Part shown: positions 18,531-61,827 of the stretch, piece after piece
Layout of the letters: the number at the start of each line of letters is the position of its first letter
Position numbering within the stretch: position 1 is the first letter of the stretch
Source of the DNA: Candidatus Contendibacter sp.
GTDB taxonomy: Bacteria > Pseudomonadota > Gammaproteobacteria > Competibacterales > Competibacteraceae
Assembly: GCA_008933795.1 (NCBI GenBank)
Contig: WBUJ01000002.1
Span: forward strand, 1 to 64,000
DNA: 64,000 bases
Direction: 5' to 3'
Translations under genes and position numbers: made by a program
Notes under the pieces: generated by a model
The model's input: only the letters and a program-made list of their open reading frames with translations
Database searches by the model: none
What the model was told of the DNA's origin: nothing

Positions 18531-19673
18531 TTATTCGATGATTTTCCAGGCGCCATTGCGGATTTCCACCAGCTTGAAGGCATCCGAACCCAGGCCCATG
18601 TGATCCTGGGCGCTCAGGTTGAATATGCCGGCGGTGCCGATAAAGCCCTGGGTTTTCTCGATCTCGTCGCGCACCTTGGCCTTGTCCGGGCCACCGGCCC
18701 GTTCGAGCGCGGCCCTGGCGATCATCAGGCTGTCGTAACCGTGACCGCCGAAGGTGGATACCGGGCCGTGCTTGGCTTCGTACTGTTTTTTGTAAGCGAG
18801 CAGCACCGGTTTATGAGGGTCGCTGTCCGGCAGTTGCTCGGCGACGACCAGCGCCGCTGCCGGCAGACGGGCGCCTTCCGCCGCTTCGCCAGCCAACTCG
18901 ATGAAGGTCCTGGAGGCGACGCCGTGTGAGTGGTAGAGGGGGAGGGTGATGCCCAGTTGCTTGATGTTTTTGGTGACAATGGCCGGGGCCTGACCGAAGC
19001 CGAAGTTGAAGATCGCTTGCGCGTTGGTGCCGCGTATCTTGGTCAACTGGGCAGTCATGTCGGTGTCCTTGTTGCCATAGGACTCGTCGGCGACCAGGGT
19101 AATGCCGTGTTGAGGAGCCAGCTTGAGGACCTGTTCGCGACCGGATTTGTCAAAACCGCCATCGCCGGTGATCAGGGCGACTTTGGTCAAGCTGCGCTTG
19201 CGCAGGTCTTCCAGAACCCTGGCGACGGCCATGCGGTCGGTGGGCGCGACTTTGAAGACCCATTTTTTCGTCGGTTCGGTGATTTCGACGGCGGCAGCCA
19301 GTGAAATGAACGGGATGCCTTCCTTTTCCACGTCGGGGATGACGGCCAAGGTGTCGCCGGAGCTGGTGCCGCCGATGAGCAGGTCTACATTATCCTTTTT
19401 AATCAGGCGTTTGACGAAGCTGACCGCGTCCTTGGCGTTACCACCGGTGTCGTAGTGGATCAGTTCAAGCTTGCGGCCATTGACGCCACCCTTGGCGTTC
19501 AGGTCCTCGACAACCATTTGCAGGGTTTTCAGTTCGGGGTCGCCCAGAAATGAGGCGGGACCGGTCACGATCAAAAAAGAGCCAATTTTGATGGGATCGG
19601 CGGCCTGGGCAATGCCGATGCCTGTCAGCAGCAGCGTTGTCGCCAGCAAGCTCTTCCAGAATCTGGTCTTCAT
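18531..19673 (-). CDS. Second LivK-like substrate-binding protein, paralogue of 14713-15852
   Basis: Very similar along its whole length to the livK product; ATG at 19673 followed by a signal peptide. Confidence 0.9.
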   Translation of the reverse strand: MKTRFWKSLLATTLLLTGIGIAQAADPIKIGSFLIVTGPASFLGDPELKTLQMVVEDLNAKGGVNGRKLELIHYDTGGNAKDAVSFVKRLIKKDNVDLLIGGTSSGDTLAVIPDVEKEGIPFISLAAAVEITEPTKKWVFKVAPTDRMAVARVLEDLRKRSLTKVALITGDGGFDKSGREQVLKLAPQHGITLVADESYGNKDTDMTAQLTKIRGTNAQAIFNFGFGQAPAIVTKNIKQLGITLPLYHSHGVASRTFIELAGEAAEGARLPAAALVVAEQLPDSDPHKPVLLAYKKQYEAKHGPVSTFGGHGYDSLMIARAALERAGGPDKAKVRDEIEKTQGFIGTAGIFNLSAQDHMGLGSDAFKLVEIRNGAWKIIE

Positions 19674-19746
19674 TGTTGGTTGTTCCAGTCGCGGGGAAAG
19701 TTGCGAAATGTTAGCAGCTATCCCCGCTGGCAAACAGAAGAGGCCA

Positions 19747-20781
19747 TCACGGTGAATCCGGCGCCTGGGTTTGAACCGGGTTGGAGGGGAGAGGAGGCCA
19801 AGCTTCCAACTGGCGTTGCAAGTGTTGCCGATCCGCCAACGCCGCTTTCAATTCGCCGCGCAGGGCTTCCGCATCGCGGATGGCATCGAGATAGCGCGTT
19901 TCCGCGAGTTGAAGCAGCGAGCGTAACTGCTCGATTTCATTAACTAAAGTGCGCTGGCGTTCCTCGGCTACAGCCAGGGTGGCCCGCAGTTCGGTAGTTT
20001 CACGGTGCTGGATTTCCCGTTGCTCCCGCCAGGCGATTTCCTGATTTTTCCAGTCCTGGCGCTCGGTTGCGAAGGTCTGACGTTCCGCTGTCTGTTCGGC
20101 GCGCAGTTGATCGAGCATGGCCAGCCATCGCGCCTCGCTGGCTTCGCCACGCTGGCGTTCGGTTTCAAACCGCTGCCTGGCTTCAGCCAGTTGTTGATCC
20201 ATGTCTGTCCGGGTTTGGTGTAGCGTAGCTTCAATCTGGGCAATACGGGCGGTGGTTTCGGCGCGGATTTGGGCGACGGTGTCCGTGGCGGCTTGAACGC
20301 GCTGTTCGGCGGCCTGAATAGCGGATTCGGCGGCGGCGCGGCGTTCCTGTTCTACCAACAGCCGGTCGGTAAGTTCGCGGTTGACCGTTTGGGCGGCTTC
20401 GAGGCGACGGCGTTGATCGTCGGCTTCGTTCCGCAACTGCTGCTGTTCGGCGATGGCGGCGTCGCGAGCCTGTTCGGCGGCAGCAATGGCTTGTGCGCCG
20501 ATCACGCGCTGTTCCTCGAAGGCCGCTTCAGCGTGCTGTACGGCGAGTTTCCAGAAGGCGTCCAGTGCGGCGGCGACGGCTTCGGGAATGGCCGGTGGCA
20601 GGATGACTTTAGGCGCTTCGGCGAGTTGTTGTTGCCAGCTTTTCAGATGCTCGCTGATGGTGGTGTTGCTGCCGGTACCGAGCAGTTCGCGCACGCGCTG
20701 GATGGTGGGATTGAGGCCGCGCCCAAGCAGGGTTTCAGCGGCATCCTGGACTTCTTCGTAACGAATTCCGGAACGAGCCAT
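19747..20781 (-). CDS. KfrA-like DNA-binding coiled-coil protein
   Basis: N-terminal MARSGIRYEEVQDAAETLLGRGLNPTIQRVRELLGTGSNTTISEHLKSWQ (KfrA_N-like) followed by a long coiled coil. Confidence 0.8.
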   Translation of the reverse strand: MARSGIRYEEVQDAAETLLGRGLNPTIQRVRELLGTGSNTTISEHLKSWQQQLAEAPKVILPPAIPEAVAAALDAFWKLAVQHAEAAFEEQRVIGAQAIAAAEQARDAAIAEQQQLRNEADDQRRRLEAAQTVNRELTDRLLVEQERRAAAESAIQAAEQRVQAATDTVAQIRAETTARIAQIEATLHQTRTDMDQQLAEARQRFETERQRGEASEARWLAMLDQLRAEQTAERQTFATERQDWKNQEIAWREQREIQHRETTELRATLAVAEERQRTLVNEIEQLRSLLQLAETRYLDAIRDAEALRGELKAALADRQHLQRQLEAWPPLPSNPVQTQAPDSP

Positions 20782-20884
20782 GGGATCGGTGAAGCTCCGT
20801 GATTATGGGTGATGAAGCGATGATAACAGATAAAATGATTACATAATACGTATATTACATGGATTTACCGAGGTAAAATTCAAG

Positions 20885-20908
20885 ATTATTCTCATAATCA
20901 TGAATAAT
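20885..20908. promoter_or_regulatory. Inverted repeat ATTATTC-N10-GAATAAT upstream of the KfrA-like gene
   Basis: Perfect 7-bp arms in AT-rich intergenic DNA between the KfrA-like gene and hipA. Confidence 0.4.
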
Positions 20909-20946
20909 GGAATCGCCCTCTAAACTGCTCCTGGCCAGGTTTTCCA

Positions 20947-22200
20947 TCATCGTTTGATGACGCGCTCGCACTGTTTGATCACGATCCGTTCGATGCGCTG
21001 CAACGCCGGATAGGCGCCAAATCGCTCTTCAAAGGTTGTTCGCGCCGAAACCGCCACTTGTGGTAGCCGAGTTGCCATCTCTTCAACCAGCTTGATCAGA
21101 AATCGCGGTCTGATGTCGCACTGTCTGGCGAACGCCTCCCAGTGCGGCCTGGCGATCAGGCTGGGATTGCGCTCGCCGCCGACATCGAACGCAAGATGGG
21201 AGTCGATGCGTTGGATCGCCCGGGTACAGACCAGATCATAGAAAGGCGCCAGGCGGATCGCTCCATTGGGCAGATGCAGCAAAGAAAGATTCTTGGCGTG
21301 CCCATCCGAATTGCCTGCCAGCACATTGAAAATCTGCCAGCGCAACAAATGTTGCGTATCAATCGCCGGTTCGCTGGAAGCGTTCCGCACCAGCAGGTAG
21401 CACTGCCCAAAGGATAGCCCGCCGTCGTTTTGATATTTCTTCTCATGCCCGTATCCCATGGCTTGGCAGAAATCTTCCTGATGCCATCGTTGCACTTCGC
21501 CCCGGTCATCCCGCACGCGGTCGTAACGGGCAATCCGCGCATAGCGGATCCGCTTGATCGACCGCAACTCGATATCGACTACCGGTAAGCCAACTGTTCG
21601 GGCGAGTTGCGTGGTAAAGGTTTCATAAGCAGGCAGATGACGATAGTCCGCCAGCTCGAATTTCAAGATGTGGCTGGAAGGAGCCTCGCTCTGGGGCAGG
21701 AAATAACCTTCGTTCTGGAACAGGACCGGACATTTATCCTGAGCGCCAGCCAGGGATAACCGGGGACGCTCGTCGGCAGGCCATGCGGTATAGATTCGGC
21801 CACGTCGAGCCGCCAGATTGGCCAGATCCTCATCCGTCAGTGGACGGTAATGGCGTTCCCCTGAAGGCTGGCGCTCGACGGGTAAAATGGACAGTGCCCC
21901 AGCGCACTCACCCCCGATGGCGCGTAGCAAATCAAAATCCGTGTTCGGAATCCTGAGATCGCGGACGATGCGCTCCCGGACGCCGCCCTCGGGCAACAAG
22001 TTGGCGAAAAAACGATGGGCGACGCCCTCCTCCGCTGCCGCATCGCCGGCGTCCAGGGGCAAAGTGCGCGAGATGGCAAAACCACCGGTGGCAATCCACT
22101 CGGCGTCATAGCGAAACCCGATCTGACCCAATGAATTGCGCCATAGATAGCCGACCAGTCGTTGCTCGCTCCAAACGTTGAGAGCATCGGGATCGATCAT
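20947..22200 (-). CDS. hipA: HipA-type Ser/Thr kinase toxin
   Basis: LLPEGGVRERIVRDL, SLAGAQDKCPVLF, NVLAGNSDGHAKNLSLLHLPNGAIRLAPFYDLV. Confidence 0.92.
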   Translation of the reverse strand: MIDPDALNVWSEQRLVGYLWRNSLGQIGFRYDAEWIATGGFAISRTLPLDAGDAAAEEGVAHRFFANLLPEGGVRERIVRDLRIPNTDFDLLRAIGGECAGALSILPVERQPSGERHYRPLTDEDLANLAARRGRIYTAWPADERPRLSLAGAQDKCPVLFQNEGYFLPQSEAPSSHILKFELADYRHLPAYETFTTQLARTVGLPVVDIELRSIKRIRYARIARYDRVRDDRGEVQRWHQEDFCQAMGYGHEKKYQNDGGLSFGQCYLLVRNASSEPAIDTQHLLRWQIFNVLAGNSDGHAKNLSLLHLPNGAIRLAPFYDLVCTRAIQRIDSHLAFDVGGERNPSLIARPHWEAFARQCDIRPRFLIKLVEEMATRLPQVAVSARTTFEERFGAYPALQRIERIVIKQCERVIKR

Positions 22201-22490
22201 GACGCCTCAACATCGGTTTTCGTGGGGCGGGAACCCTGCGCGGCAGAAACGGCGCTGCCCCGGGGTTTTACGATGATATCCAGGCCAAGAATTTCAAGCG
22301 CCTTCAATACCTTGCCGATCTCGGCGGTCTCTTTGCCGCGCTCAAACTCGGATAAAAAGCGCGTGCTTAGAGTGCTGAGTCCAGAGACCGTTTCGAGGGT
22401 CAGGCGTCGGCTCTTGCGATGAACGCGCGCCAACCGGCCCAGTTCTGCAACCGTCCGGATCGCCCCGTAAGTGACTTCATCCTTCGCCAT
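22197..22490 (-). CDS. hipB: HipB-like HTH antitoxin
   Basis: HTH LGRLARVHRKSRRLTLETVSGLSTLSTRFLSEFERGKETAEIGKVLKALEILGLDI; 4-nt overlap with hipA; ATG at 22490. Confidence 0.85.
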   Translation of the reverse strand: MAKDEVTYGAIRTVAELGRLARVHRKSRRLTLETVSGLSTLSTRFLSEFERGKETAEIGKVLKALEILGLDIIVKPRGSAVSAAQGSRPTKTDVEAS

Positions 22491-22723
22491 GGCGATGCCT
22501 GTGAAAAGTACTGTACGGTAAAAAATAGCCTCGCGAAGAGGCAAACTCAAGAAAAATATACCGTGCGTGAAAATTAAACAGACTTCCCGGACTATGGCGA
22601 CCCGAATGTACTTTTATCATCGCATCCGCCGCGACTTGGCAGCACAATATCGTTGCATCCTCGCTGATGTCCCTGGCAACGCTAATCTCGGCTATCGCGG
22701 CAAGGCCCCTTTGGAGAGACTCA

Positions 22724-25700
22724 ATGCCCACGTCAAATAACCACTCCGGCCTGCGCGACAACCACACTAGAGGAACGGTCGCCGACTTCCTGCGGGCGAA
22801 AATCCAGAGCGGCTCCCAGCTCTCTATCGTATCGGCCTACTTCACCATCTACGCTTACGACGCGCTCAAGGAGGCGCTCGAGCGGATTGAACATCTCGAT
22901 TTTCTCTTCGGCGAGCCAGCCTTCGTCAATCGTCTCGACCCCGGCAAGACCGAGAAAAAAGCGTTCATTATCAACGCCGATGGTTTGGCACTCGCCAACC
23001 AGCTTCAGCAGAAACGCATCGCCCGGGAGTGCGCCGACTGGATCGAGCGCAAGGTGGACATCAAGACCATCAGGCAAGCCAACCTCCTGCACGGCAAGAT
23101 GTATTACATCGCCACCGCTGGCGTAGAGGAGGCCATTCTCGGCAGTTCCAACTTCACGGTGCGCGGTCTCGGCCTCAGCCATGCCGGCAACAACATCGAA
23201 CTGAACCTCATCGTGGACGGCAACCGCGACCGTCGGGAACTCAAGCAATGGTTCGACGAGCTTTGGGGCAACGACGCTCTCGTGAAGGACGTGAAGCAGG
23301 ACGTCCTCAACGACCTCAAGCAGCTCTACGAGAACCACACCCCGGAGTTCATCTACTACAAGACGCTGTTCCACCTCTTCGAGAAATTCCTCGGCGACGC
23401 TGGCAAGACCGACGCGGACCTGGGCAAGACCAGCCTGTTCGAGACCGAAATCTGGAAGGCGCTGTTCGAGTTCCAGAAGGACGGCGCCAAAGGCGCCATC
23501 AACAAAATCCTCCGCCACAACGGCTGCATCATCGCGGACAGCGTCGGCTTGGGGAAAACCTACGAGGCGCTCGCCGTCATGAAATACTTCGAGTTGAAGA
23601 ACGAGCGCGCTCTCGTTCTCTGCCCGAAGAAGCTCCGCGACAACTGGACGGTTTATAAAGCCAACAGCCTCCTCAATCCGTTCGTCTCAGACCGCTTCCG
23701 CTACGATGTCGTTTCCCACACCGACCTCAGCCGCGAGACCGGCACCTCCGGCGATCTCAATCTCGCGGCCCTGAACTGGGGCAACTACGACCTCATCGTC
23801 ATTGACGAGTCGCACAACTTCCGCAACAACACGCCCGGCAAGCGCGACGAGGACGGCAACATCATCCGCAAGAGCCGCTACCAGCGGCTCATGGATGACC
23901 TCATCAAATCCGGCGTCCGCACCAAGGTCCTTCTGCTCTCCGCCACCCCGGTCAACAACGACCTCAAAGACCTCCGCAACCAACTCTACTTCCTCACCGA
24001 AAATCGCGACGATGCCTTCGCGGAATCCATCGGCGTCGGCAGCCTCAAGGAAACCCTCGCCACCGCGCAAAAGGTCTTCTCCATCTGGGCGAAAAAGCAA
24101 AGCGCCGAGCGCAAGACCGGCGAACTGCTGGAGAAGCTCAATGCGGCCTTCTTCAAGCTCCTCGACGAACTGACCATCGCCCGCTCGCGCAAGCACATTC
24201 AGAAATACTACCAGGCCGCCATCGCCGATCTCGGCGGTTTTCCGAAACGCGAAAAGCCGGTCTCCATTTATCCCGAGATCGACCTGCGCGAGCGCTTCCT
24301 CTCCTACGACAAGCTCAACGACGAAATCGCCGCCTACAAACTGGCCCTGTTCAACCCGTCCCGATACGTGCTGGAGTCGCACAAGGCCGAGTATGAGAAG
24401 AAGGGTGCCTTCCCGTTCACGCAGGGCCAGCGCGAAACTTTCCTCATCGGCATGATGAAGGTGAACTTCCTCAAGCGCCTCGAAAGCTCCGTCAAATCGT
24501 TTGAGATCACGATGGAGCGCACCATCGCCAAGATCGAGAGCCTCGAACAGAAAATCAAAAACTTCCAGGCGTTGCCCAGCCCGCATCCCGAATCCGGGGA
24601 GTTGGAACTGGAACTCGACGACCCCGGGCGCGACGAAGAGCTGGAGGACGCCGTGCAGGTCGGCGGCAAACTGAAATTTCGGTTGAATCACCTCCGGCTC
24701 GACGGCGACGACGGCTGGCTCAAGGCGCTCAAGCGCGACAAAGACCAGCTCCGCATCCTCTACAATGCCGCGCGGGATGTCACGCCCGAGACCGACGCCA
24801 AGCTGGCCGAACTCAAGAAGCTCATCGCCGCCAAGGTCGCCAAACCCACGACCAACAACCTGGGCGAGCCGAACCGGAAAGTCCTCGTTTTCACCGCGTT
24901 CGCCGACACCGCCGCCTACCTCTATGAATCACTGCTCGACTGGGCGCAGAAGGAACTCGGCATTCACCTGGCCCTGGTCTGCGGTGGCGGCGACACCCGC
25001 ACCACCTTTGGCGCGAGCGCCTACGACCAAATCCTCTTCAACTTCTCACCGCGCTCCAAACACCGCGCCAAAATTCCCACCATGCCGCAGCAGGGTGAGA
25101 TCGATCTCCTCATCGCCACCGACTGCATCAGCGAGGGGCAAAACCTTCAGGACTGCGACTATCTCATCAACTACGACATCCACTGGAATCCTGTCCGCAT
25201 CATCCAGCGTTTTGGGCGTATCGACCGGATCGGCAGCGCCAGCCGCAGCGTGCAGCTCGTCAATTTCTGGCCCACCGAAGACCTCAACAAATACATCAAC
25301 CTCAAAAACCGGGTCGAGGCCCGCATGGCCCTGGTGGACCTCTCCGCCACCTTCGAGGACAACGTGCTCAGGAACGAGGAGATCGAAGAACTCATCTCCG
25401 ACGACCTCCGCTACCGCGACAAGCAACTTCTCCGGCTCAAAGACGAAGTCCTCGACCTCGAAGACCTCGGCGACAGCGTCTCCCTCACCGAATTCACCCT
25501 CGACGATTTTCGCCTTGAGCTGCTGAAATACCTCGAAGCTAACCGCGCCACCCTCGAAGCTGCCCCCTTCGGCCTGTACACCTGTGTTCCGCCGCATCCC
25601 GATTACCCGGTCATCGGCCCCGGCGTCATCTTCTGCTTCCGGCTGGAGGGCCAACGCGGCGGCGCCACCGATGCGAAGCCCGCGCCGAGCGAGTCCATCA

Positions 25701-26059
25701 ACCCGCTCCATCCCTGCTTCCTCGTTTACGTCCTGGACGACGGCAACGTCCGCTTTGGTTTCGCCCACCCGAAGCAGATACTCGACATCTACCGAATCCT
25801 CTGTTCGGGCAAGGCGGAGGTTTACGCCCCGCTTTGCCATCTGTTCGACCAACAAACTCAGCACGGTAGCGACATGAAGGCTTACGACACGCTCTTGCAA
25901 AAAGCCGTGGACTCCCTCGCCGCCACCTTCCGCAAACGCGCCGCCGCCGGCCTCCAGTCCGGGCGCGGCTTCGTTCTGCCAAATGCCCAGGAACAGGTCC
26001 ATGAAAAGACCGACCTCGAACTCGTCACCTGGCTCGTCATTAAGGAGGACAAGGCATGA
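22724..26059 (+). CDS. PLD-nuclease/SF2 (SNF2-like) helicase fusion
   Basis: HKD-like LLHGKMYYIATAGVEEAILGSSNFTVRG; Walker A ADSVGLGKTYEAL; VIDESHNFRN; LLSATPVNN; IQRFGRIDRIGS. ATG at 22724. Confidence 0.93.
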   Translation: MPTSNNHSGLRDNHTRGTVADFLRAKIQSGSQLSIVSAYFTIYAYDALKEALERIEHLDFLFGEPAFVNRLDPGKTEKKAFIINADGLALANQLQQKRIARECADWIERKVDIKTIRQANLLHGKMYYIATAGVEEAILGSSNFTVRGLGLSHAGNNIELNLIVDGNRDRRELKQWFDELWGNDALVKDVKQDVLNDLKQLYENHTPEFIYYKTLFHLFEKFLGDAGKTDADLGKTSLFETEIWKALFEFQKDGAKGAINKILRHNGCIIADSVGLGKTYEALAVMKYFELKNERALVLCPKKLRDNWTVYKANSLLNPFVSDRFRYDVVSHTDLSRETGTSGDLNLAALNWGNYDLIVIDESHNFRNNTPGKRDEDGNIIRKSRYQRLMDDLIKSGVRTKVLLLSATPVNNDLKDLRNQLYFLTENRDDAFAESIGVGSLKETLATAQKVFSIWAKKQSAERKTGELLEKLNAAFFKLLDELTIARSRKHIQKYYQAAIADLGGFPKREKPVSIYPEIDLRERFLSYDKLNDEIAAYKLALFNPSRYVLESHKAEYEKKGAFPFTQGQRETFLIGMMKVNFLKRLESSVKSFEITMERTIAKIESLEQKIKNFQALPSPHPESGELELELDDPGRDEELEDAVQVGGKLKFRLNHLRLDGDDGWLKALKRDKDQLRILYNAARDVTPETDAKLAELKKLIAAKVAKPTTNNLGEPNRKVLVFTAFADTAAYLYESLLDWAQKELGIHLALVCGGGDTRTTFGASAYDQILFNFSPRSKHRAKIPTMPQQGEIDLLIATDCISEGQNLQDCDYLINYDIHWNPVRIIQRFGRIDRIGSASRSVQLVNFWPTEDLNKYINLKNRVEARMALVDLSATFEDNVLRNEEIEELISDDLRYRDKQLLRLKDEVLDLEDLGDSVSLTEFTLDDFRLELLKYLEANRATLEAAPFGLYTCVPPHPDYPVIGPGVIFCFRLEGQRGGATDAKPAPSESINPLHPCFLVYVLDDGNVRFGFAHPKQILDIYRILCSGKAEVYAPLCHLFDQQTQHGSDMKAYDTLLQKAVDSLAATFRKRAAAGLQSGRGFVLPNAQEQVHEKTDLELVTWLVIKEDKA

Positions 26060-27099
26060 ACGGCAGCGAGCTCACTACCGATACCGGCTACCAGAGCCTG
26101 CTGAGAAAAATCTCCGAGGTTTACGCCACCGGTCAGGCCCGGGCGGCGCAGGCCGTCAATGTCCACATCACCGAGACCTACTGGCGGATTGGCCGGGACA
26201 TCGTCGAGTTTGAACAGGGCGGCAACATCAGGGCAGATTACGGCAAAGCCTTGCTGGCCAAGCTCAGCCGCGATCTCACTCTGCGCCACGGCAAAGGATT
26301 TAGCAGGAGCAACATGATCTACATGCGCCTCCTCTACCTCCATTACCCAAAAGGTCAGAAGCCTTCTGACTTATTGAGTTGGTCGCACCATGTGGAGTTG
26401 CTCCGCATTGATGACCCCATGGAGCGCAGCTTTTACGAAAAGCAGGCCATCAGGGAAAAATGGTCCGTTCCCGAGCTGAAACGCCAGAAGAAATCCTCTT
26501 TGTTCCTCCGCCTCGCCGCCGGAAAGGACAAGGACGCGATCCTTCAGCTTGCCACCCAAGGTCAGATCATCGCTCAGCCCGCCGACCTGCTCCGTGACCC
26601 CTACGTCTTCGAGTTCCTGAAAATCCCCGAGCCGCACCAGGTTTCGGAGACGGATCTGGAAAGCCGCCTTTGCGATCACCTCCAGCCCTTCCTCCTCGAA
26701 CTTGGCAAAGGCTTCACCTTCGTTGGCCGGCAATACCGCATCACCCTCAGCAACACCCATTACCGGGTCGATCTTGTTTTCTACCACCGCATCCTGCGCT
26801 GTTTTGTCCTTATCGATCTGAAAATCAACGATGTCGAACACTACGACATCGGCCAGATGAACATGTATCTCGGCTATTTCGCCACCGAGGAGAACACTGA
26901 GGGCGACAACCCGCCCATCGGCATCATCCTCACCCGGAACAAGGACGAACTGCTCGTCGAATACGCTACTTACCAGATGAACAGCCAGCTTTTCGTCCAA
27001 AAATACCAGCTTTACCTGCCCGACCGCGAAGAGCTTCGCCGCGAACTGGAGCTTACCCTGCAACTCGCCGACGACAGCGCCCGCCAAGAACAGCCATGA
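26056..27099 (+). CDS. DUF1016/YhcG-family PD-(D/E)XK nuclease (copy 1)
   Basis: ETYWRIGRDIVEFEQGG, GKGFSRSNMIYMRLLY, YRVDLVFYHRILRCFVLIDLKINDVEHYDIGQMNMYL; ATGA overlap with the upstream gene. Confidence 0.92.
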   Translation: MNGSELTTDTGYQSLLRKISEVYATGQARAAQAVNVHITETYWRIGRDIVEFEQGGNIRADYGKALLAKLSRDLTLRHGKGFSRSNMIYMRLLYLHYPKGQKPSDLLSWSHHVELLRIDDPMERSFYEKQAIREKWSVPELKRQKKSSLFLRLAAGKDKDAILQLATQGQIIAQPADLLRDPYVFEFLKIPEPHQVSETDLESRLCDHLQPFLLELGKGFTFVGRQYRITLSNTHYRVDLVFYHRILRCFVLIDLKINDVEHYDIGQMNMYLGYFATEENTEGDNPPIGIILTRNKDELLVEYATYQMNSQLFVQKYQLYLPDREELRRELELTLQLADDSARQEQP

Positions 27100-30000
27100 A
27101 ATCCGCCCTCGCCCATTTCCAGACCCTCCCACTCAAGGACGCCGCCCGCCAGCTTCTCGCCCGGCTGGGCTACCAGAGCGACAAGTTCATCGCCGGCGCC
27201 GGCTCCTCGCCGCAGGCTTTTCTCGATCTCTTCGGCTCCGGCCCTGCCTTTGATCCGGCCAAGGCCCTCGTCTCCGAGTGGAAAACCGCCGATCTCCTCT
27301 TCCAACTCACCGATCAGGAACTCAGCCGCGAATCCACCCTCTTCACCGACACCTCGGTTCAAGCCGGTCTGCTGAAATCCTACGTGTTCATCGCTATCGA
27401 GCTGAAGGGCAGCGACTACGCCCGTGGCAAATTCTCGGCCATCGCCCGCCAGATGAACCGGCTTTTCCCCATGCCCGTCATGGTGTTCTTCAAGCACCAG
27501 GACCGCCTCACCATCGCCGTCATCAACCGGCGCGTGAACAAGCTCGACGAAAGCAAGGATGTGCTCGGCAAAGTCACCCTGATCAGCGGGATCGCCCTGG
27601 CCCAGCCCCACCGTGGCCACCTCGACATCCTCGCCGCGCTGGCGCTGCCCAAGCTCGTCCATCCGCAAAAGAAGCCCATCACCGACTTCGACACGCTCCA
27701 CGCCGCGTGGGAGCAGATCTTCAACGTTGAGTTGCTCAACGAACGCTTCTACCGCGAGCTGGCCAACTGGTATTTCTGGGCGCTCCCGCAGGTCGAGTTC
27801 CCGGCCGATCTCGAAGCCGACGCCGAGAAACGCCGCGCCACCGGCCTGATCCGGCTGCTCACGCGCCTGATCTTCTGCTGGTTCCTCAAGGAAAAGGGCC
27901 TCATCCCGGAGCAACTGTTCCACCCTACCGACCTTGAGACCACCATCCTCACCGATTTCGATGACGCCAGTTCCACCTACTATCAGGCCATCCTGCAAAA
28001 CCTCTTCTTCGCCACACTGAATCAGCGCATGGGCAAGGACGCCAAAGGCCAGCCCTACCGCTGCTTCGCCAAGGACGAAGGCTTCCAGAAAAACCGCGCC
28101 ACCTACGATGTCAACAACCTCTACCGCTACGAATCCCTCTTCCGCGCAGCGCCGGACGCCGCCCTCGCCCACTTCGCCGATATCCCGTTCCTCAACGGCG
28201 GCCTTTTCGAGTGCCTCGACCGCACCGAGGACGACACCGGCAAGAAGCGCTACCTCGACGGCTTCTCCCGCAATCCCAAAAAGCGCCCCACCGTTCCCAA
28301 CCGCCTCTTCTTCGGCGGCGAACAGGAATCCGACCTCTCCGCGGCCTATGGCGACACCAAGCGCAAAAAGGAAAAGGTCGCCGGCCTCATCCGCATCCTG
28401 AACCGCTACAAGTTCACCATCGTCGAGAACACCCCCATCGATCAGGAAATCGCCCTCGACCCCGAACTCCTCGGCAAGGTCTTCGAGAACCTCCTCGCCT
28501 CCTACAACGAGGAAACCAGGACCACCGCCCGCAAGCAGACCGGCTCGTTCTACACCCCGCGCCCCATCGTGGACTACATGGTGGACGAGTCGCTCAAGGC
28601 CCACCTCACCCGCGTCCTTGTGGAAAAGGCCGGCATGAAGGAACCCGATGCCCGCGCCGGGCTGGACCTTCTCTTCGCCTACACCGAGAAAGCGCACGCC
28701 TTCACCGCGCCCGAAGTCGCCTGCCTCATCGCCGCCATCGACGCCCTGAAAATCCTCGATCCCGCCTGTGGTTCCGGCGCTTTCCCCATGGGCGTCCTCC
28801 ACAAGCTCGTTTATATCCTCGGCAAGCTCGATCCCGACAACGACCGCTGGAAGCAGACCCAGCTCGCCAAGCTCGACTCCGCCCCCATGCGCGAGGAACT
28901 GGAGCGCGCCTTCGCCGACAACAACGATGACTACGGCCGCAAGCTCTATCTGATCGAAAACTGCCTCTACGGCGTGGACATCCAGCCCATCGCCATCCAG
29001 ATCACCAAGCTCCGCTTCTTCATCTCCCTCGTCTGCGACCAAAAGATCAACCGCGACAAAGCGAAAAACCACGGCATCCGTCCGCTGCCCAATCTGGAAA
29101 CCAAGTTCGTCGCGGCAAATACGCTGATTGGCCTGCCGGAGATGAATCAGATGGAGCTGGTCGATCCTCGGGTTTACCAAATAGAGGCGGAGATCGAAGC
29201 CCTCTATCACAGCCACTTTTCCGAGCAGAGACGCGACAGGAAGCTGGCCAATCAACGCAAGGTCAAAAGCCTCCGCCAGGAACTCGGGAAGCTACTCGCT
29301 GAAAGCCTCATGGCCCCGAAAAAGGCGCAACACGTTGCCGAATGGGATGCCTTTGATCCGCAATCCTCTGCCGATTTTTTTGATCCACACTGGATGTTTG
29401 GACGCTCGCTGACGGAAGGATTTGATATCGTCATCGGAAATCCGCCTTACATCCAGATTCAGAAGTTCCCCGCTGCTCAAAAAACGAATTGGGAAGCGCA
29501 GAAGTTCACCACTTACGCGGCCATGGCTGACATCTACTGCCTCTTCTACGAGCGGGGCGCAAAGTTACTTCGCGCTGACGGCCATCTTTGCTACATCACC
29601 TCCAACAAATGGATGCGCGCGGGCTATGGCAAGAAACTGCGATTATTTCTCGCAGTGAATACAACACTCCTTCAGGTCATCGACTTTGCCGAGTTGCCTG
29701 TGTTTGTAGCAGCAACGGACACCGCAATTATACTCGTTAGTAAAGACCGACCTCGCCCCAAGCATAAAATCAAGTCAGTTGTGGTAAAAGAGGCCACAGA
29801 TATCAAGGATTTAACAGCAATAGTTCACGGACGTTTTGCAGTCCGAGAACAATGCACACTTCAAAAAGACGGATGGGTTTTGGAAGCGTCATCAGTTCTC
29901 ACGCTTCTCGCGAAGCTCCGCAGTGTAGGCAAGCCCCTTGGCGAAGTCGTGAATCGACGATTCTACTACGGTATAAAAACAGGCTTGAATGAAGCGTTCG

Positions 30001-30767
30001 TCGTTAATCGCGCAACCCGGGATGAACTGATTGCAGAACATCCATCATCGACGCAGATATTGAAACCATTCATTCACGGTGCAGACGCGAAAAAGTGGAC
30101 GGTTGATTTGAGGGATGAATGGCTCATCTATGTTCCGTGGCATTTTCCATTGCATTTGGATACCTCCGTCAGCGGCCCAAGTAAGGAAGCTGAAGTGCTT
30201 TTCCAAAAAGCTTATCCGGCAGTTTACAGGTATCTACTCAATCACAGGTCGAAGTTGCTCGCCCGCAACGCTGCCGAAACCGGCATACGCTACGAATGGT
30301 ATGCGCTACAGCGGTGGGGAGCAGAATATTGGAGAGAATTTGAGAATCCTAAGATTATCTTTAATGAGACATCGAAGGAACTTCATGCGTTTCTCGATGA
30401 AACTGGACTTTATACTAATAAGACTCTATTCATGCTCATTGCGCCACATCCGAAGCCCTTGCTTGCAGTCCTATTGAGCCGCATGATGGATTGGCTTTTT
30501 CGTCATGAGTTTCCGAGTTGGGGCGATCCTTGGAAAGGTGGAAGGATTCAGTTTAGGGGAGATCGGATGGCTACCGTCCCTATTGCTGATTTTTCCGAGA
30601 AAGTTGCTATCGAGTTCACCAGGATTGTCGATCTCATCCTTGCCGCCAAGAAAGTTGATCCCGCTGCCGACACAAGTCCTTTGGAGCGCGAGATAGACCA
30701 ACAGGTTTACGCCCTCTACGGTCTGACGCCGGATGAAATCGCCATCGTGGAAGGCACCACAAAATGA
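27096..30767 (+). CDS. Eco57I-like N6-adenine DNA methyltransferase with a large N-terminal extension
   Basis: TGSFYTPRPIVDYMVDESL, ILDPACGSGAFPMGVL (motif I), FDIVIGNPPYIQIQ (motif IV); ATGA overlap with the DUF1016 gene. Confidence 0.93.
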   Translation: MKSALAHFQTLPLKDAARQLLARLGYQSDKFIAGAGSSPQAFLDLFGSGPAFDPAKALVSEWKTADLLFQLTDQELSRESTLFTDTSVQAGLLKSYVFIAIELKGSDYARGKFSAIARQMNRLFPMPVMVFFKHQDRLTIAVINRRVNKLDESKDVLGKVTLISGIALAQPHRGHLDILAALALPKLVHPQKKPITDFDTLHAAWEQIFNVELLNERFYRELANWYFWALPQVEFPADLEADAEKRRATGLIRLLTRLIFCWFLKEKGLIPEQLFHPTDLETTILTDFDDASSTYYQAILQNLFFATLNQRMGKDAKGQPYRCFAKDEGFQKNRATYDVNNLYRYESLFRAAPDAALAHFADIPFLNGGLFECLDRTEDDTGKKRYLDGFSRNPKKRPTVPNRLFFGGEQESDLSAAYGDTKRKKEKVAGLIRILNRYKFTIVENTPIDQEIALDPELLGKVFENLLASYNEETRTTARKQTGSFYTPRPIVDYMVDESLKAHLTRVLVEKAGMKEPDARAGLDLLFAYTEKAHAFTAPEVACLIAAIDALKILDPACGSGAFPMGVLHKLVYILGKLDPDNDRWKQTQLAKLDSAPMREELERAFADNNDDYGRKLYLIENCLYGVDIQPIAIQITKLRFFISLVCDQKINRDKAKNHGIRPLPNLETKFVAANTLIGLPEMNQMELVDPRVYQIEAEIEALYHSHFSEQRRDRKLANQRKVKSLRQELGKLLAESLMAPKKAQHVAEWDAFDPQSSADFFDPHWMFGRSLTEGFDIVIGNPPYIQIQKFPAAQKTNWEAQKFTTYAAMADIYCLFYERGAKLLRADGHLCYITSNKWMRAGYGKKLRLFLAVNTTLLQVIDFAELPVFVAATDTAIILVSKDRPRPKHKIKSVVVKEATDIKDLTAIVHGRFAVREQCTLQKDGWVLEASSVLTLLAKLRSVGKPLGEVVNRRFYYGIKTGLNEAFVVNRATRDELIAEHPSSTQILKPFIHGADAKKWTVDLRDEWLIYVPWHFPLHLDTSVSGPSKEAEVLFQKAYPAVYRYLLNHRSKLLARNAAETGIRYEWYALQRWGAEYWREFENPKIIFNETSKELHAFLDETGLYTNKTLFMLIAPHPKPLLAVLLSRMMDWLFRHEFPSWGDPWKGGRIQFRGDRMATVPIADFSEKVAIEFTRIVDLILAAKKVDPAADTSPLEREIDQQVYALYGLTPDEIAIVEGTTK

Positions 30768-30809
30768 ACCTGAAGAGCAAGCGCAGGTTCCTCCTCATCC
30801 CGTTTGCCA

Positions 30810-30911
30810 ATGCACCGCCTCGTCGCTGAACTGCGCGCCCAGTTCGCCGAGTCCGCGAAACTGGAATCTACGATACGCGCCCACCTGGAAAAACTCGGCT
30901 ATGGCCTCTGA
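30810..30911 (+). other. 33-codon ORF, possible remnant of an RM-system gene
   Basis: MHRLVAELRAQFAESAKLESTIRAHLEKLGYGL*; overlaps the ATG of DUF1016 copy 2. Confidence 0.3.
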
Positions 30912-31953
30912 TCTCATCTCCGACGACTACACCGCTTGGCTTGCGGACCTCAAGGCCCGCATCCATCAGGCGCAACAACGCGCCACACTCTCCGTCAATC
31001 GCGAGTTGATCTCCCTCTACTGGCAACTCGGGAAGGACATCCTTGCCCGCCAGGCCGATCAGGGATGGGGCGCGAAAGTCATCGAGCGACTGTCCCGCGA
31101 TCTGCGCGCCGCCTTTCCCGAAATGAAAGGCTTCTCCCGCGCCAACCTCCTCTACATGCGGGCCTTTGCCGAAGCATGGCCCGATCCCGCAATTGTCCAA
31201 CAAGCTGTTGGACAATTGCCCTGGGGGCACAACATTGTGCTGCTCACCCGCCTCAAGTCTCCCGAGTGGCGACTCGCCTACGCCCAGCAAGCCATCCAGT
31301 ATGGTTGGTCGCGCAACGTGCTGGACATCCACATCGAAACCCGGCGCCTGGAGCGGCAAGGTCAGGCCATCACCAACTTCGACCTCCGCCTGCCCCAAGC
31401 CCAATCCGACCTCGCCCGGGAGTCCCTCAAAGACCCCTATCGTCTCGACTTTCTCGGACTCAGCAAAGAGGCGGAAGAACGCGCCATCGAGTCCGCCCTC
31501 GTCCAGCACATTACCCACTTCCTCATCGAATTGGGGGCTGGATTCGCCTTCGTAGGCCGACAGGTGCCGTTGGAAGTCGGTGGCGACGATTTTTTCATCG
31601 ACCTCCTCTTCTACCACCTGAAACTGCGTTGCTACGTGGTGATCGAACTCAAGGCCGGCCCCTTCAAGCCCGAACACACCGGCAAACTGGGTTTTTACCT
31701 CAGTGCGGTGGATGCCCAGATCAAGCACCCCGACGACCAACCCACCATCGGCCTCCTGCTCTGCAAAAGCAAAAATAGTGTCGTCGCCGAGTATGCCCTA
31801 CGGGACATCAACAAACCCATCGGCGTAGCCGAATACCAACTCGTTCAGTCCCTCCCCGAACGTCTGCAAACGAATCTGCCGAGCATCGAGGAAATCGAAG
31901 CCGAACTGGCGAACGACATTCCGCCCACGCCGGCAAAGACCAGGAAATCATGA
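30901..31953 (+). CDS. DUF1016/YhcG-family PD-(D/E)XK nuclease (copy 2)
   Basis: SLYWQLGKDILARQADQGWGAKVIERLSRDLRAAFPEMKGFSRANLLYMR, FFIDLLFYHLKLRCYVVIELKAGPFKPEHTGKLGFYLSAVD; ATG at 30901. Confidence 0.92.
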   Translation: MASDLISDDYTAWLADLKARIHQAQQRATLSVNRELISLYWQLGKDILARQADQGWGAKVIERLSRDLRAAFPEMKGFSRANLLYMRAFAEAWPDPAIVQQAVGQLPWGHNIVLLTRLKSPEWRLAYAQQAIQYGWSRNVLDIHIETRRLERQGQAITNFDLRLPQAQSDLARESLKDPYRLDFLGLSKEAEERAIESALVQHITHFLIELGAGFAFVGRQVPLEVGGDDFFIDLLFYHLKLRCYVVIELKAGPFKPEHTGKLGFYLSAVDAQIKHPDDQPTIGLLLCKSKNSVVAEYALRDINKPIGVAEYQLVQSLPERLQTNLPSIEEIEAELANDIPPTPAKTRKS

Positions 31954-53931: not shown

Positions 53932-54001
53932 AGATCGGCTATGGATTGAATTTAAAAGTTGCTGCTGATTGATTGATGGCCAAATCTTTATGGAGTCTGC
54001 C

Positions 54002-54976
54002 GTGAAGTTGCAACAGCTACGCTATCTAGTTGCTATTGTTCGTAATAATATGAATATCTCCGCTGCGGCGGAGAGTCTGTATACTTCTCAACCAGGTATT
54101 AGTAAACAGTTGCGGTTGCTGGAGGAAGAACTGGGTGTTGAATTGTTCAATCGCAATGGTAAGCATCTGACCGAGATGACCCCGATCGGGCGGCAGATTA
54201 TTATTAAGGTGGAGATTATTCTGCGTGAGATCAATAATATCCAGATCTTGGCTGAGGAGTACCGCGATGATCGGCGTGGTAGTTTATCCATTGCCACGAC
54301 ACATACTCAAGCTCGCTATGCTTTGCCGCCGGTTGTCAAACTTTTTCGGGAGCGTTATCCGGCAGTAACTTTGCAGATTCATCAAGGTTCTCCGACACAG
54401 ATTGCTGAGATGGTGCAGTCTGGCGAGGTGGATTTTGCGATTGCTACCGAGTCCTTGGAACTGTTCGAGGATTTGGTGATGATGCCTTGTTATGTTTGGC
54501 AACGCTGTGTGTTGGTGCCGTGCGAACATCCGTTGGCTGAACTGGGTCAACTGACTTTGCAGGATGTTGCTCGGTATCCGCTGGTGACTTATGTATTTGG
54601 TTTTACTGGCCGATCTCAGTTGGATGAGGCATTCCGGAATGCGCAGTTGAGGCCTGTGGTGGCTTTTACCGCAACTGATGCGGATGTGATTAAAACTTAT
54701 GTCCGTCTGGGGATGGGAGTTGGTATTGTTGCGCGGATGGCTTATGACCCGAGACAGGATCAGGATTTGGTGCGACTGGATGCGGGCCATTTGTTTGCGG
54801 CTAACGTAACTAGGATCGGGTTTCGGCGCGGTATGTTTTTGCGGTGTTATATGTATGACTTTATTGAGTTATTTGCTCCTCACTTGACTAAGGAGCGGGT
54901 GCGGATGATAGAGCGGTTTCAGACTTCGGAGGAGATTGATGCATTGTTTGAGGGGGTTGAGTTGCCGGTTTTCTAG
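54002..54976 (+). CDS. cysB: CysB-family LysR-type regulator
   Basis: VKLQQLRYLVAIVRNNMNISAAAESLYTSQPGISKQLRLLEEELGVELFNRNGKHL; GTG at 54002 preferred over the upstream start. Confidence 0.88.
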   Translation: MKLQQLRYLVAIVRNNMNISAAAESLYTSQPGISKQLRLLEEELGVELFNRNGKHLTEMTPIGRQIIIKVEIILREINNIQILAEEYRDDRRGSLSIATTHTQARYALPPVVKLFRERYPAVTLQIHQGSPTQIAEMVQSGEVDFAIATESLELFEDLVMMPCYVWQRCVLVPCEHPLAELGQLTLQDVARYPLVTYVFGFTGRSQLDEAFRNAQLRPVVAFTATDADVIKTYVRLGMGVGIVARMAYDPRQDQDLVRLDAGHLFAANVTRIGFRRGMFLRCYMYDFIELFAPHLTKERVRMIERFQTSEEIDALFEGVELPVF

Positions 54977-55038
54977 TGGTTGTTTTTGGTGTGTTGGTGT
55001 TGAGAACTCTCATGATGATGATATAGAAAGGAATATGG

Positions 55039-55944
55039 GTGAAACCCTCGCCAGTCACTGTACGAATGGACTTGCTGGCCAGTTTCGAGGCAATGCTGGC
55101 TCAGTTGGATACCTTCTGCATGGCAGTTCGTCAGGATGGCGCCTTGCCAGCTTGGGTATCGCGCACCGAGATGGAATTGGTGGAAAATCTGGATATGCGC
55201 CTTAAGGCGATCCAACTTTATCGGGCTCTTTGGTACGAGGATAGTCAGGATGGTCGGGAGACACTAACCTGTCCTGGCATTGTCGGTGTTACTTTGGAAA
55301 CCTTGACTGCTGCTCATGTTTGTAATGCTGCCAAGGATGAATTCAAGGCGACCGTGCTGGCGCTGAAAGGTCTTAACCGAGCTGAAATGAATGATGCGAT
55401 GGCCGATTTGCATCGGCGGTGGGAAACCGTGGCAGTGGCCATGCGGCGCATGGGCGCGGCTCGTTTGAATTTGAAACAAGCTTACCGGCATATTCCTCTG
55501 CTGGAGCGGCGCCCGCTCAAGATTGGCTTTACTTGGTCCAAGCAGGGTCGCGTGATTCAGCGCACCAGTGTGGCTGAAGCTCGCCGCTTGTTGGAACAGC
55601 GGGTCGAAACACCACAGGTTCGATTGGAATTGCGACGTCTGGCGGAAATTGGTGGGGATGAACCATTGGCGCGCGTTCGTGGAGTTTGTCCGCATTTACG
55701 CGCTAATATTGTTTTTGCCGAGTTGGAACGTGGTTGTGTATCGCGTCGGTTGATGCAAACTCCCCTACCGATTTTGGTGCCTTTACGGCGTGATGAGCGG
55801 TTGCCTGAATTCGTGGCGGTGGCGCTGGAACCCCCACTCAATCCTCGTCTACGGCGGGCGGATGTGCGGATCGAGGACGAACCTTTTTTACCTTCGATTC
55901 GAATTTATCGCTATCGTGAGCCTTACCGTGTTGAATCAAGATGA
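55039..55944 (+). CDS. Tus-like DNA replication terminus site-binding protein
   Basis: By-eye collinear resemblance to E. coli Tus: LTCPGIVGVTLETLTAA, NLKQAYRHIPLLERRPLKIGFTWSKQGRVIQRTSVAEARRLLEQRVETPQ, QTPLPILVPLRRDERLPE, LPSIRIYRY. Confidence 0.75.
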   Translation: MKPSPVTVRMDLLASFEAMLAQLDTFCMAVRQDGALPAWVSRTEMELVENLDMRLKAIQLYRALWYEDSQDGRETLTCPGIVGVTLETLTAAHVCNAAKDEFKATVLALKGLNRAEMNDAMADLHRRWETVAVAMRRMGAARLNLKQAYRHIPLLERRPLKIGFTWSKQGRVIQRTSVAEARRLLEQRVETPQVRLELRRLAEIGGDEPLARVRGVCPHLRANIVFAELERGCVSRRLMQTPLPILVPLRRDERLPEFVAVALEPPLNPRLRRADVRIEDEPFLPSIRIYRYREPYRVESR

Positions 55945-56055
55945 TGGTATAAATTCACTTTGAATGCCAAAACCCACCACTTGCCGCAAAATCGCCTAAA
56001 ATTGTCTGAAACGATTCCTCCAAAAATATTTTAAACCCCTCAGGAGACTCCCCCC

Positions 56056-58194
56056 ATGTCCGCCCGCGCTCGCGTATGGCCCGGCAATCCGTATCCCCTC
56101 GGCGCCACTTGGGATGGCAAGGGCGTCAATTTCGCGCTATTTTCCGCCCATGCCGAGAGAGTCGAACTATGCCTGTTCGATTCTTCGGGCCAGCGCGAGA
56201 TCGAGCGCTTGGCCCTGGCCGAGAATACCGACCAAGTCTGGCACGGCTATGTACCGGGGCTGTGGCCGGGCGCCTTGTATGGCTACCGCGTCTCCGGGCC
56301 CTACGAACCGCAGATCGGCCATCGCTTCAACCACCACAAACTGCTGCTCGATCCCTACGCCAAGCAGTTCTACGGCGCGCTGCACCTGCGCGACGAACAC
56401 TGCGGTTACCAAGTGGGCCACCGCGACGCCGACCTGTCCTTCGATATCCGCGACAACGCCCGCGACATGCTCAAATGCGTGGTAGTGGACACCCGCTTCA
56501 ATTGGGATAGCGATCGCTCGCCCGAAATTCCCTGGTCGCGGACCCTGATCTACGAAACCCACGTCCGCGGCTTCACCATCCGTCACGAAGGCGTGCCCCA
56601 CCATCTCCGCGGCACCTTCGCCGGCCTTGCCCATCCTGAAATCATCAAATATCTCCAGTCGCTCGGCATCACCGCCGTGGAGTTGATGCCCGTCCATGCC
56701 TTCGTGGACGACCGCTTTTTGACCGATCGTGGGCTGCGGAATTACTGGGGTTACAACACCCTGTGCTTTTTCGCCCCGGAACCGCGCTACCTGAGCGGCG
56801 GCGATCTGGTCGAGTTCAAAACCATGGTCAAGCGGTTGCACGACGCCGGCATCGAGGTGCTGCTGGACGTGGTCTATAACCACACCGCCGAGGGGGACCA
56901 GATGGGTCCGACTCTCAGCTTCAAGGGTATCGACAACGCCTCCTACTACCGGCTCCTCCCTGGCGACCGCCGCCACTACATCAACGACACCGGCTGCGGC
57001 AATACCCTGAACCTGATGCATCCACGGGTGTTGCAGATGGTGATGGACAGTCTGCGCTACTGGGTCAACGAAATGCACGTGGATGGCTTCCGTTTTGACC
57101 TGGCGGTGACGCTGGGCCGGGAGGAATACGGCTACGACCGCGCCGGCGGCTTCTTCGACGCCATCCGTCAGGATCCCGCCATGTCGCGGGTCAAGATCAT
57201 CGCCGAGCCGTGGGACATCGGTCCCGGTGGTTACCAGCTCGGCGGTTTTCCCGCCGGCACCGCCGAATGGAACGACCGCTTCCGCGATACCGTGCGCCGG
57301 TTCTGGCGCGGCGATGACGACATGCTATCCAAACTGGCGCCCAACCTGCTCGCCTCCAGCGACTTGTTCGAGCATGATAGTCGGCGACCGTGGGCGACGA
57401 TCAACTACATCGCTAGCCACGACGGTTTTACCCTGGCCGACCTGGTCAGCTACAACGAGCGCCATAACGAGGCCAACGGTGAAAATAACCGCGACGGCCA
57501 CCCGTCCAACTTCAGCAACAACCACGGCGTCGAGGGGCCGACCGCCGATCCCGCCATCAGGGAAATGCGCTTGCGCCAGCGGCGCAACATGCTGGCCACC
57601 CTGCTGCTGGCCCAGGGCACGCCGATGCTGCTGGCCGGCGACGAGTTTGGTCGCAGCCAGCGCGGCAACAACAACGCCTATTGTCAGGACAACGACATCA
57701 ACTGGCTGGACTGGGATATCCCGCCCGAAGAAGGGGAGTTTTTCGGTTTCGTCCGCCGTCTGATCAACCTGCGCCAGGAACATCCGGTGCTGCGCCGGTC
57801 CCGTTTCATGCACGGCTTGCAGATTTCCAAGACCCATGGATTGCACGATATCGACTGGATCAGCCCCGGCGGCGGCGCCATGAGCGACTACCACTGGCAG
57901 GAACCCAAGGCCCGCTGTTTCGGCATGCTGCTGACCGGCAACGCCGGCGAGTACTTTACTGCCGATGGCTATCCCGAAACCGACGATGCCATGCTGGTTA
58001 TTTTTAACGCCAGCCCAACCGCGGTCCCGTTCCGTCTTCCCACAGTGCGCGACGCCAGTCACTGGCGCTGCCTGCTGGACACCACTCGACCGCAGTTGAC
58101 GCCGGGTGAATTGCTGCTGGAGGTTGGCGACGATTTTCAGATGGAATCCTGGGCTGTCACCGTGTTCGCGCTGGTCCTGGCCAACCCGGATTGA
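56056..58194 (+). CDS. glgX: Glycogen debranching enzyme
   Basis: GNPYPLGATWDGKGVNFALFSAHAERVELCLFD; YETHVRGFT; DVVYNHTAEGDQMGPTLSFKGIDNASYYRL; GDEFGRSQRGNNNAYCQDNDINWLDWD. Confidence 0.96.
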   Translation: MSARARVWPGNPYPLGATWDGKGVNFALFSAHAERVELCLFDSSGQREIERLALAENTDQVWHGYVPGLWPGALYGYRVSGPYEPQIGHRFNHHKLLLDPYAKQFYGALHLRDEHCGYQVGHRDADLSFDIRDNARDMLKCVVVDTRFNWDSDRSPEIPWSRTLIYETHVRGFTIRHEGVPHHLRGTFAGLAHPEIIKYLQSLGITAVELMPVHAFVDDRFLTDRGLRNYWGYNTLCFFAPEPRYLSGGDLVEFKTMVKRLHDAGIEVLLDVVYNHTAEGDQMGPTLSFKGIDNASYYRLLPGDRRHYINDTGCGNTLNLMHPRVLQMVMDSLRYWVNEMHVDGFRFDLAVTLGREEYGYDRAGGFFDAIRQDPAMSRVKIIAEPWDIGPGGYQLGGFPAGTAEWNDRFRDTVRRFWRGDDDMLSKLAPNLLASSDLFEHDSRRPWATINYIASHDGFTLADLVSYNERHNEANGENNRDGHPSNFSNNHGVEGPTADPAIREMRLRQRRNMLATLLLAQGTPMLLAGDEFGRSQRGNNNAYCQDNDINWLDWDIPPEEGEFFGFVRRLINLRQEHPVLRRSRFMHGLQISKTHGLHDIDWISPGGGAMSDYHWQEPKARCFGMLLTGNAGEYFTADGYPETDDAMLVIFNASPTAVPFRLPTVRDASHWRCLLDTTRPQLTPGELLLEVGDDFQMESWAVTVFALVLANPD

Positions 58195-61761: not shown

Positions 61762-61827
61762 GTGTCCTAGATGATGATATAAGAACGGGTAAAACCTCAT
61801 CGCCTGGGCGTGGAGCCGTCCCGCCCA

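Follow-up and report, generated by a model that had tools for sequence, protein, structure and literature searches.

A chromosomal fork trap of the Tus-Ter type is very likely present in the Competibacteraceae. The protein proposed to act in it is a homologue of Tus, and the motif of its putative sites is enriched, co-occurs with the gene, is polar and is positioned around the replication terminus. Binding, fork arrest and autoregulation are inferred. The window, by which the whole stretch of 64,000 nucleotides that was analysed is meant, belongs to a genome of the Competibacteraceae ('Ca. Contendobacter'), and the nearest contigs were those of Candidatus Contendobacter and Competibacter assemblies, with a best identity of 85%. 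No paper on a fork trap in Competibacteraceae was found in the openly licensed literature that was searched, and a prior description elsewhere is not excluded.

The tus-like gene and its homology to E. coli Tus

The gene and its two neighbours are located as follows:

53969..54976, + strand: CysB-type LysR regulator (Pfam HTH_1 and LysR_substrate), upstream neighbour
55039..55944, + strand: Tus-family protein gene, 301 aa, GTG start at 55039
56056..58194, + strand: glgX-type glycogen debranching enzyme, downstream neighbour

The open reading frame at 55039-55944 is a genuine gene, and it is surrounded by glycogen and sulfur genes in the order cysB-tus-glgX. A tus-like gene was identified in 22 of the 25 Competibacteraceae genomes sampled, the genome of the window included. 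Orthologues of the window protein, which are 61-85% identical to it, occur in most of the family, and the cysB side of the context is kept in most of these loci.

Direct searches with the window protein were uninformative. The Pfam model PF05472 (Ter) gave no match to it, even at E values of up to 10, and no match anywhere in the source genome, with a positive result for the E. coli control. A BLASTP comparison with E. coli Tus produced an alignment of 268 residues with 21% identity that was insignificant (E = 1.6), though collinear. Scans of NCBIfam, PHROGs, and PDB sequences with the single window protein returned nothing useful, no homologue of it was present in the phage records, and the AlphaFold model, which was based on 21 close homologues, was of low confidence (pLDDT 54.6).

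Homology to Tus was established through Pfam-positive intermediates and a profile-profile comparison. Using tblastn, the window protein was matched by plasmid proteins annotated as 'DNA replication terminus site-binding protein' (41% identity and E 2e-34 for that of Halomonas), and the Pfam Ter cut-off is passed by some of the plasmid relatives (Methylophaga, E 2e-7; Pseudomonas rhodesiae, E 2e-14). For the comparison with Tus, a branch profile was built without any Pfam-positive member. This profile scored the P. rhodesiae protein with an E value of 8e-14 and E. coli Tus with an E value of 6e-5 when the search was scaled to 1000 sequences. Alignment of the same profile to the Tus profile with hhalign extended end to end over 267 columns (probability 99.7, E 3e-26), and a value of 99.2 was obtained with the Competibacteraceae sequences alone. 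The window protein is a full-length distant homologue of Tus.

The first-pass annotation had claimed that this open reading frame resembles E. coli Tus and that it lies between cysB and glgX, and both claims held. The resemblance is real, yet it was not provable by the method of that annotation, which used the sequence only. The absence of a profile hit, which had been named there as a refutation, would have misled, given that the direct Pfam Ter scan was negative and the profile-profile comparison, together with the intermediates, was strongly positive.

Ter-like sites and their polarity around the terminus

An alignment of the upstream regions of 26 Competibacteraceae loci revealed that a short element ahead of the gene, GATGATGATATAA, is conserved. 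Genome counts were made with a 13-bp asymmetric motif, KATGATGRTATAA, and the consensus obtained from 72 sites was (W)AGATGATG[AG]TATAAAAA. The window contains the following Ter-like sites:

55014..55026, + strand: Ter-like site 1, GATGATGATATAG (1 mismatch), just upstream of the tus-like gene
55940..55952, + strand: Ter-like site 2, GATGATGGTATAA, with the TGA stop codon of the tus-like gene inside it
61770..61782, + strand: Ter-like site 3, GATGATGATATAA (exact), downstream of sulfate-type ABC transporter genes

At two or fewer mismatches, 5 motif matches were counted in the window versus 0.59 expected. The motif or a one-mismatch form of it adjoins the tus-like gene in 21 of the 26 loci, always in the orientation of the gene and never in reverse; a Ter-like site is located upstream of the gene in 16 of the 26 and at its 3' end in 16 of the 26, and 5 of the 26 have no such site beside the gene. 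Exact copies of GATGATGATATAA were found in 11 of 16 Competibacteraceae genomes, versus 0 for a reversed-pattern control, and at one mismatch or fewer there were 116 matches to the motif versus 10 control matches in 17 genomes.

Each gene-bearing Competibacteraceae genome has 2-9 sites of the form KATGATGRTATAA. No KATGATGRTATAA site was found in two near-complete genomes that lack the tus-like gene (G015 and G021), nor in 19 of the 22 genomes taken from outside the family, the exceptions being G025, G043, and G045 with 1, 2, and 4 sites, respectively. The four matches in G045 are all on one strand. One incomplete genome (G002) has Ter-like sites, and the tus-like gene was not found in it.

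The terminus was located in the window by means of two features:

20878..20905, - strand: dif candidate, ATTCATGATTA-TGAGAA-TAATCTTGAAT, inverted half-sites (11-6-11), located where the cumulative GC skew is highest
18939..31850, no strand: KOPS (GGGNAGGG) strand switch interval, an independent terminus marker

A canonical E. coli-type dif was not found in most Competibacteraceae genomes. The 28-bp inverted repeat ATTCATGATTA-N6-TAATCTTGAAT is kept in 13 of them, several of which have it at the skew maximum, and it is put forward, from sequence alone, as a newly recognised non-canonical dif candidate. The cumulative GC skew of the window peaks at 21 kb, and GC skew and KOPS independently place the terminus at the dif candidate.

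On ten contigs that carry the dif candidate, all of the exact sites (29/29) are on the minus strand to the left of dif and on the plus strand to its right, and since contig orientation is arbitrary this is a relation rather than a convention. On a contig of Ca. Competibacter denitrificans (G013:C79, L032), the minus sites are at 39.7 and 41.2 kb and the plus sites at 77.0 and 78.0 kb, and the same arrangement was observed in G018, G019, and G004. Distances between the inner sites on single contigs were 36 kb (G013), 42 kb (G019), 70 kb (G004), and 96 kb (G018). The cumulative GC-skew peak falls between the opposed sets of sites in G013 and G018, is present between them as a local peak in G004, and coincides with the first plus site in G019; the KOPS switch falls between the opposed sets in G013, G018, and G019, and G004 is noisier. 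Most of the genomes are drafts, and a single contig covers both arms in only a subset.

When all fetched contigs were considered, the negative-skew strand carried the sites in 37 of 45 non-redundant contig-strand groups (P = 8e-6). Relative to the strand of the motif, 50 KOPS were in the same direction versus 185 in the opposite one. Shuffled motifs gave 0.84 matches per motif in the same stretches, 48% of them negative, compared with 79 matches, 81% negative, for the real motif. The polarity rule is broken by a minority of sites, notably one located immediately before a DUF4178 gene that has an integrase gene next to it.

Several minor observations were made on the sites and on the dif candidate. 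Ter-like sites flank a tyrosine-integrase gene in some loci (L172, 2136/3593; L174, 8900/10355; L169, 4755; L180, 8036/9940); one integrase-linked site is directly before the DUF4178 gene, and some are oriented such that origin-derived forks would be blocked. Many genomes contain pairs of sites with a spacing of about 1480 bp (e.g. L099, 11625 and 13109). In G004, such a pair flanks a thiolase gene whose neighbour is of the seryl-tRNA synthetase type, and the sites are antisense to both genes. Extra copies of the dif candidate on G000:C279 (L155) and G004:C8 (L154) share little beyond the 28 bp, as is expected for elements that integrate via dif. A second conserved AT-rich element resembling TAAAATACGTATTATGTAAT is present a few tens of bases past the dif candidate (window; L067-L104 and L146-L155). 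In G010, which is a distant member of the family, opposed Ter-like sites only 1.6 kb apart enclose a canonical-looking dif (CTCATAATGTATATTATGTCAAAT) (G010:C280, L135; 97, 1357, and 1690), and this cluster is right beside the tus-like gene. Another conserved 28-mer near the terminus (window 17089) appeared dif-like at first and was rejected as part of the coding region of a gene of the indolepyruvate ferredoxin oxidoreductase type.

Proposed fork trap and alternative readings

In the proposed mechanism, the Tus-family protein would bind about five asymmetric sites per genome on both sides of the terminus. A bound site would let pass an origin-derived fork that arrives from the 3' side of the motif and would stop a fork that arrives from the 5' side after passing the terminus; the overrunning fork would then be held until the opposite fork arrives, with dif and the terminus inside the trap. 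These directions of stopping and passing are inferred from homology and geometry. On its arm, no site is further in than the tus-vicinal one, which corresponds to a type I layout. The protein probably represses its own gene, which is inferred because sites are located at the promoter region of the gene and at its stop codon.

The first-pass annotation had left a choice between an active fork trap in another lineage and a repurposed protein, and had held that an origin-proximal locus without Ter-like sites would refute its reading. By GC skew the locus is near the terminus, and Ter-like sites are present. The fork trap is favoured, as an inference and with arrest not measured, on the position of the gene near the terminus (GC skew, KOPS, and the dif candidate), the polar sites on both sides, and a geometry like that of E. 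coli.

The lock-pocket alignment that had been named there as a check bears on the arrest chemistry. F140 and H144 of E. coli Tus hold the flipped cytosine 6 of Ter. Among the residues of the cytosine(6)-lock pocket (I79, F140, H144, G149, and L150), only L150 is clearly kept; I79, F140, H144, and G149 are replaced, and the alignment is uncertain around 140-144. Arginine in place of H144 is also found in some plasmid members of the PF05472 type. In the best core alignment of the motif with E. coli Ter, ATGnTRTAA can be aligned and position 6 is T-A, not G-C. The direct resemblance between the motif and the Ter consensus of E. coli was not significant, with 14% of shuffles scoring equally well. 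It is likely, within the limits of this uncertain alignment, that the G-C(6) pair of E. coli Ter is not conserved in the Competibacteraceae motif. Both sides of the C(6)-lock contact may be altered, which remains only a possibility given the uncertain alignment and the lack of H144 in some Tus-type plasmid proteins as well. Because the lock residues, and probably G-C(6), are not conserved, arrest chemistry may differ from that of E. coli.

Three alternatives to the fork trap were considered. According to the first, which is very unlikely, the motif serves as a TGnTATAAT-like extended -10 promoter, the protein is an ordinary autoregulator, and the polarity follows gene orientation. In its favour, TGRTATAA resembles an extended -10, a site is just upstream of the gene in 16/26 loci, and one class of sites is directly before the DUF4178 gene. 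However, the sites are on the C-rich lagging strand, and promoters of co-oriented genes should be found more often on the opposite one; those that flank the thiolase gene are antisense to it; and about five sites per genome around dif, 29/29 of them in fork-trap order, are not promoter-like. The second alternative, in which a Tus relative was domesticated as an organiser or regulator of the terminus region that binds the sites and no longer arrests forks, is also judged highly improbable. It is supported by the lack of conservation at the F140/H144 positions and probably at G-C(6), and by the wrong orientation of some sites, but there would be nothing to maintain a strict polarity with respect to dif in the absence of directional fork arrest, and in family f32 (see below) the site sequence has changed and the polar layout has been kept. 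The third, a recently imported plasmid termination gene without a chromosomal role, is suggested by the location of the annotated tblastn homologues on large plasmids and is virtually ruled out by the presence of the gene in 22/25 sampled family genomes, the cysB-side context kept in most loci, and the chromosomal Ter-like sites on both arms.

Relation to known systems and to other lineages

The Tus-Ter system of E. coli and other Enterobacterales (PF05472) resembles the system of the window in having a full-length homologous protein, and in E. coli, as in the Competibacteraceae, two oppositely oriented sets of asymmetric sites are arranged around dif. In a scan of E. coli, TerB was placed on the plus strand, 28 bp upstream of tus and in the orientation of tus; dif is at about 1,590,750, with TerB to its right. 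This placement is that of site 1 of the window, just upstream of the gene and in gene orientation. Fork traps have been divided into type I and type II (PMC8707476), and the tus-vicinal site is innermost in type I, as in the Competibacteraceae. Unlike E. coli Tus, the window protein is below Pfam and BLAST detection; the site is AGATGATGRTATAAAAA rather than AGNATGTTGTAAYKAA, the context is cysB-tus-glgX, the dif sequence is another one, and the lock residues I79/F140/H144/G149 are replaced.

The plasmid 'DNA replication terminus site-binding proteins' (Halomonas, Methylophaga, Marinobacter, Pseudomonas, and Vibrio megaplasmids) are homologous to the window protein with 25-41% identity, and several of them belong to the same branch, but their genes are located on plasmids and have no exact copy of the Competibacteraceae motif beside them. 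The RTP fork trap of Bacillus likewise has polar barriers around the terminus. RTP is an unrelated winged-helix dimer with bipartite sites.

In a survey of PF05472 (PMC6549158), resident chromosomal tus was recognized in three groups only, having been domesticated three times (most Enterobacterales, the second chromosome of Pseudoalteromonas, and the Aeromonadales), and the other genes were seen as mobile. The trap proposed here would be at least one further family-wide resident trap beyond those three groups, and would provide a new comparison set for the question of why fork traps evolve. Natural Tus variants without the canonical lock residues would make the lock-versus-no-lock debate on polar arrest testable.

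With the branch profile, 27 of the 369 gammaproteobacterial genomes sampled were found to have a member, versus 9 with the Pfam model. Family f32 has a different site sequence, GGTTATGGGATAA. On the complete chromosome of one of its members (G199), sites at -269732, -323884, +324087, and +380907 are arranged around a skew maximum at 311.8 kb, and the tus-related gene is at 323018-323821; besides these four terminus sites there are two more distant copies at 745900 and 1618877. Two relatives of G199 also have the minus-then-plus order. The protein is linked to the sites because protein and site sequence change together and the layout stays. In a bolder reading, a large and mostly Pfam-invisible branch of Tus is responsible for chromosomal fork traps across many families of the Gammaproteobacteria, with fast-evolving sites and without the C(6)-H144 lock. 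It remains possible, although the balance of evidence tilts slightly against it; if it were true, the same fold would allow polar arrest to be built in another way. Directly upstream of the gene in G051, there is a minus-plus pair of sites with a distance of 110 bp between them.
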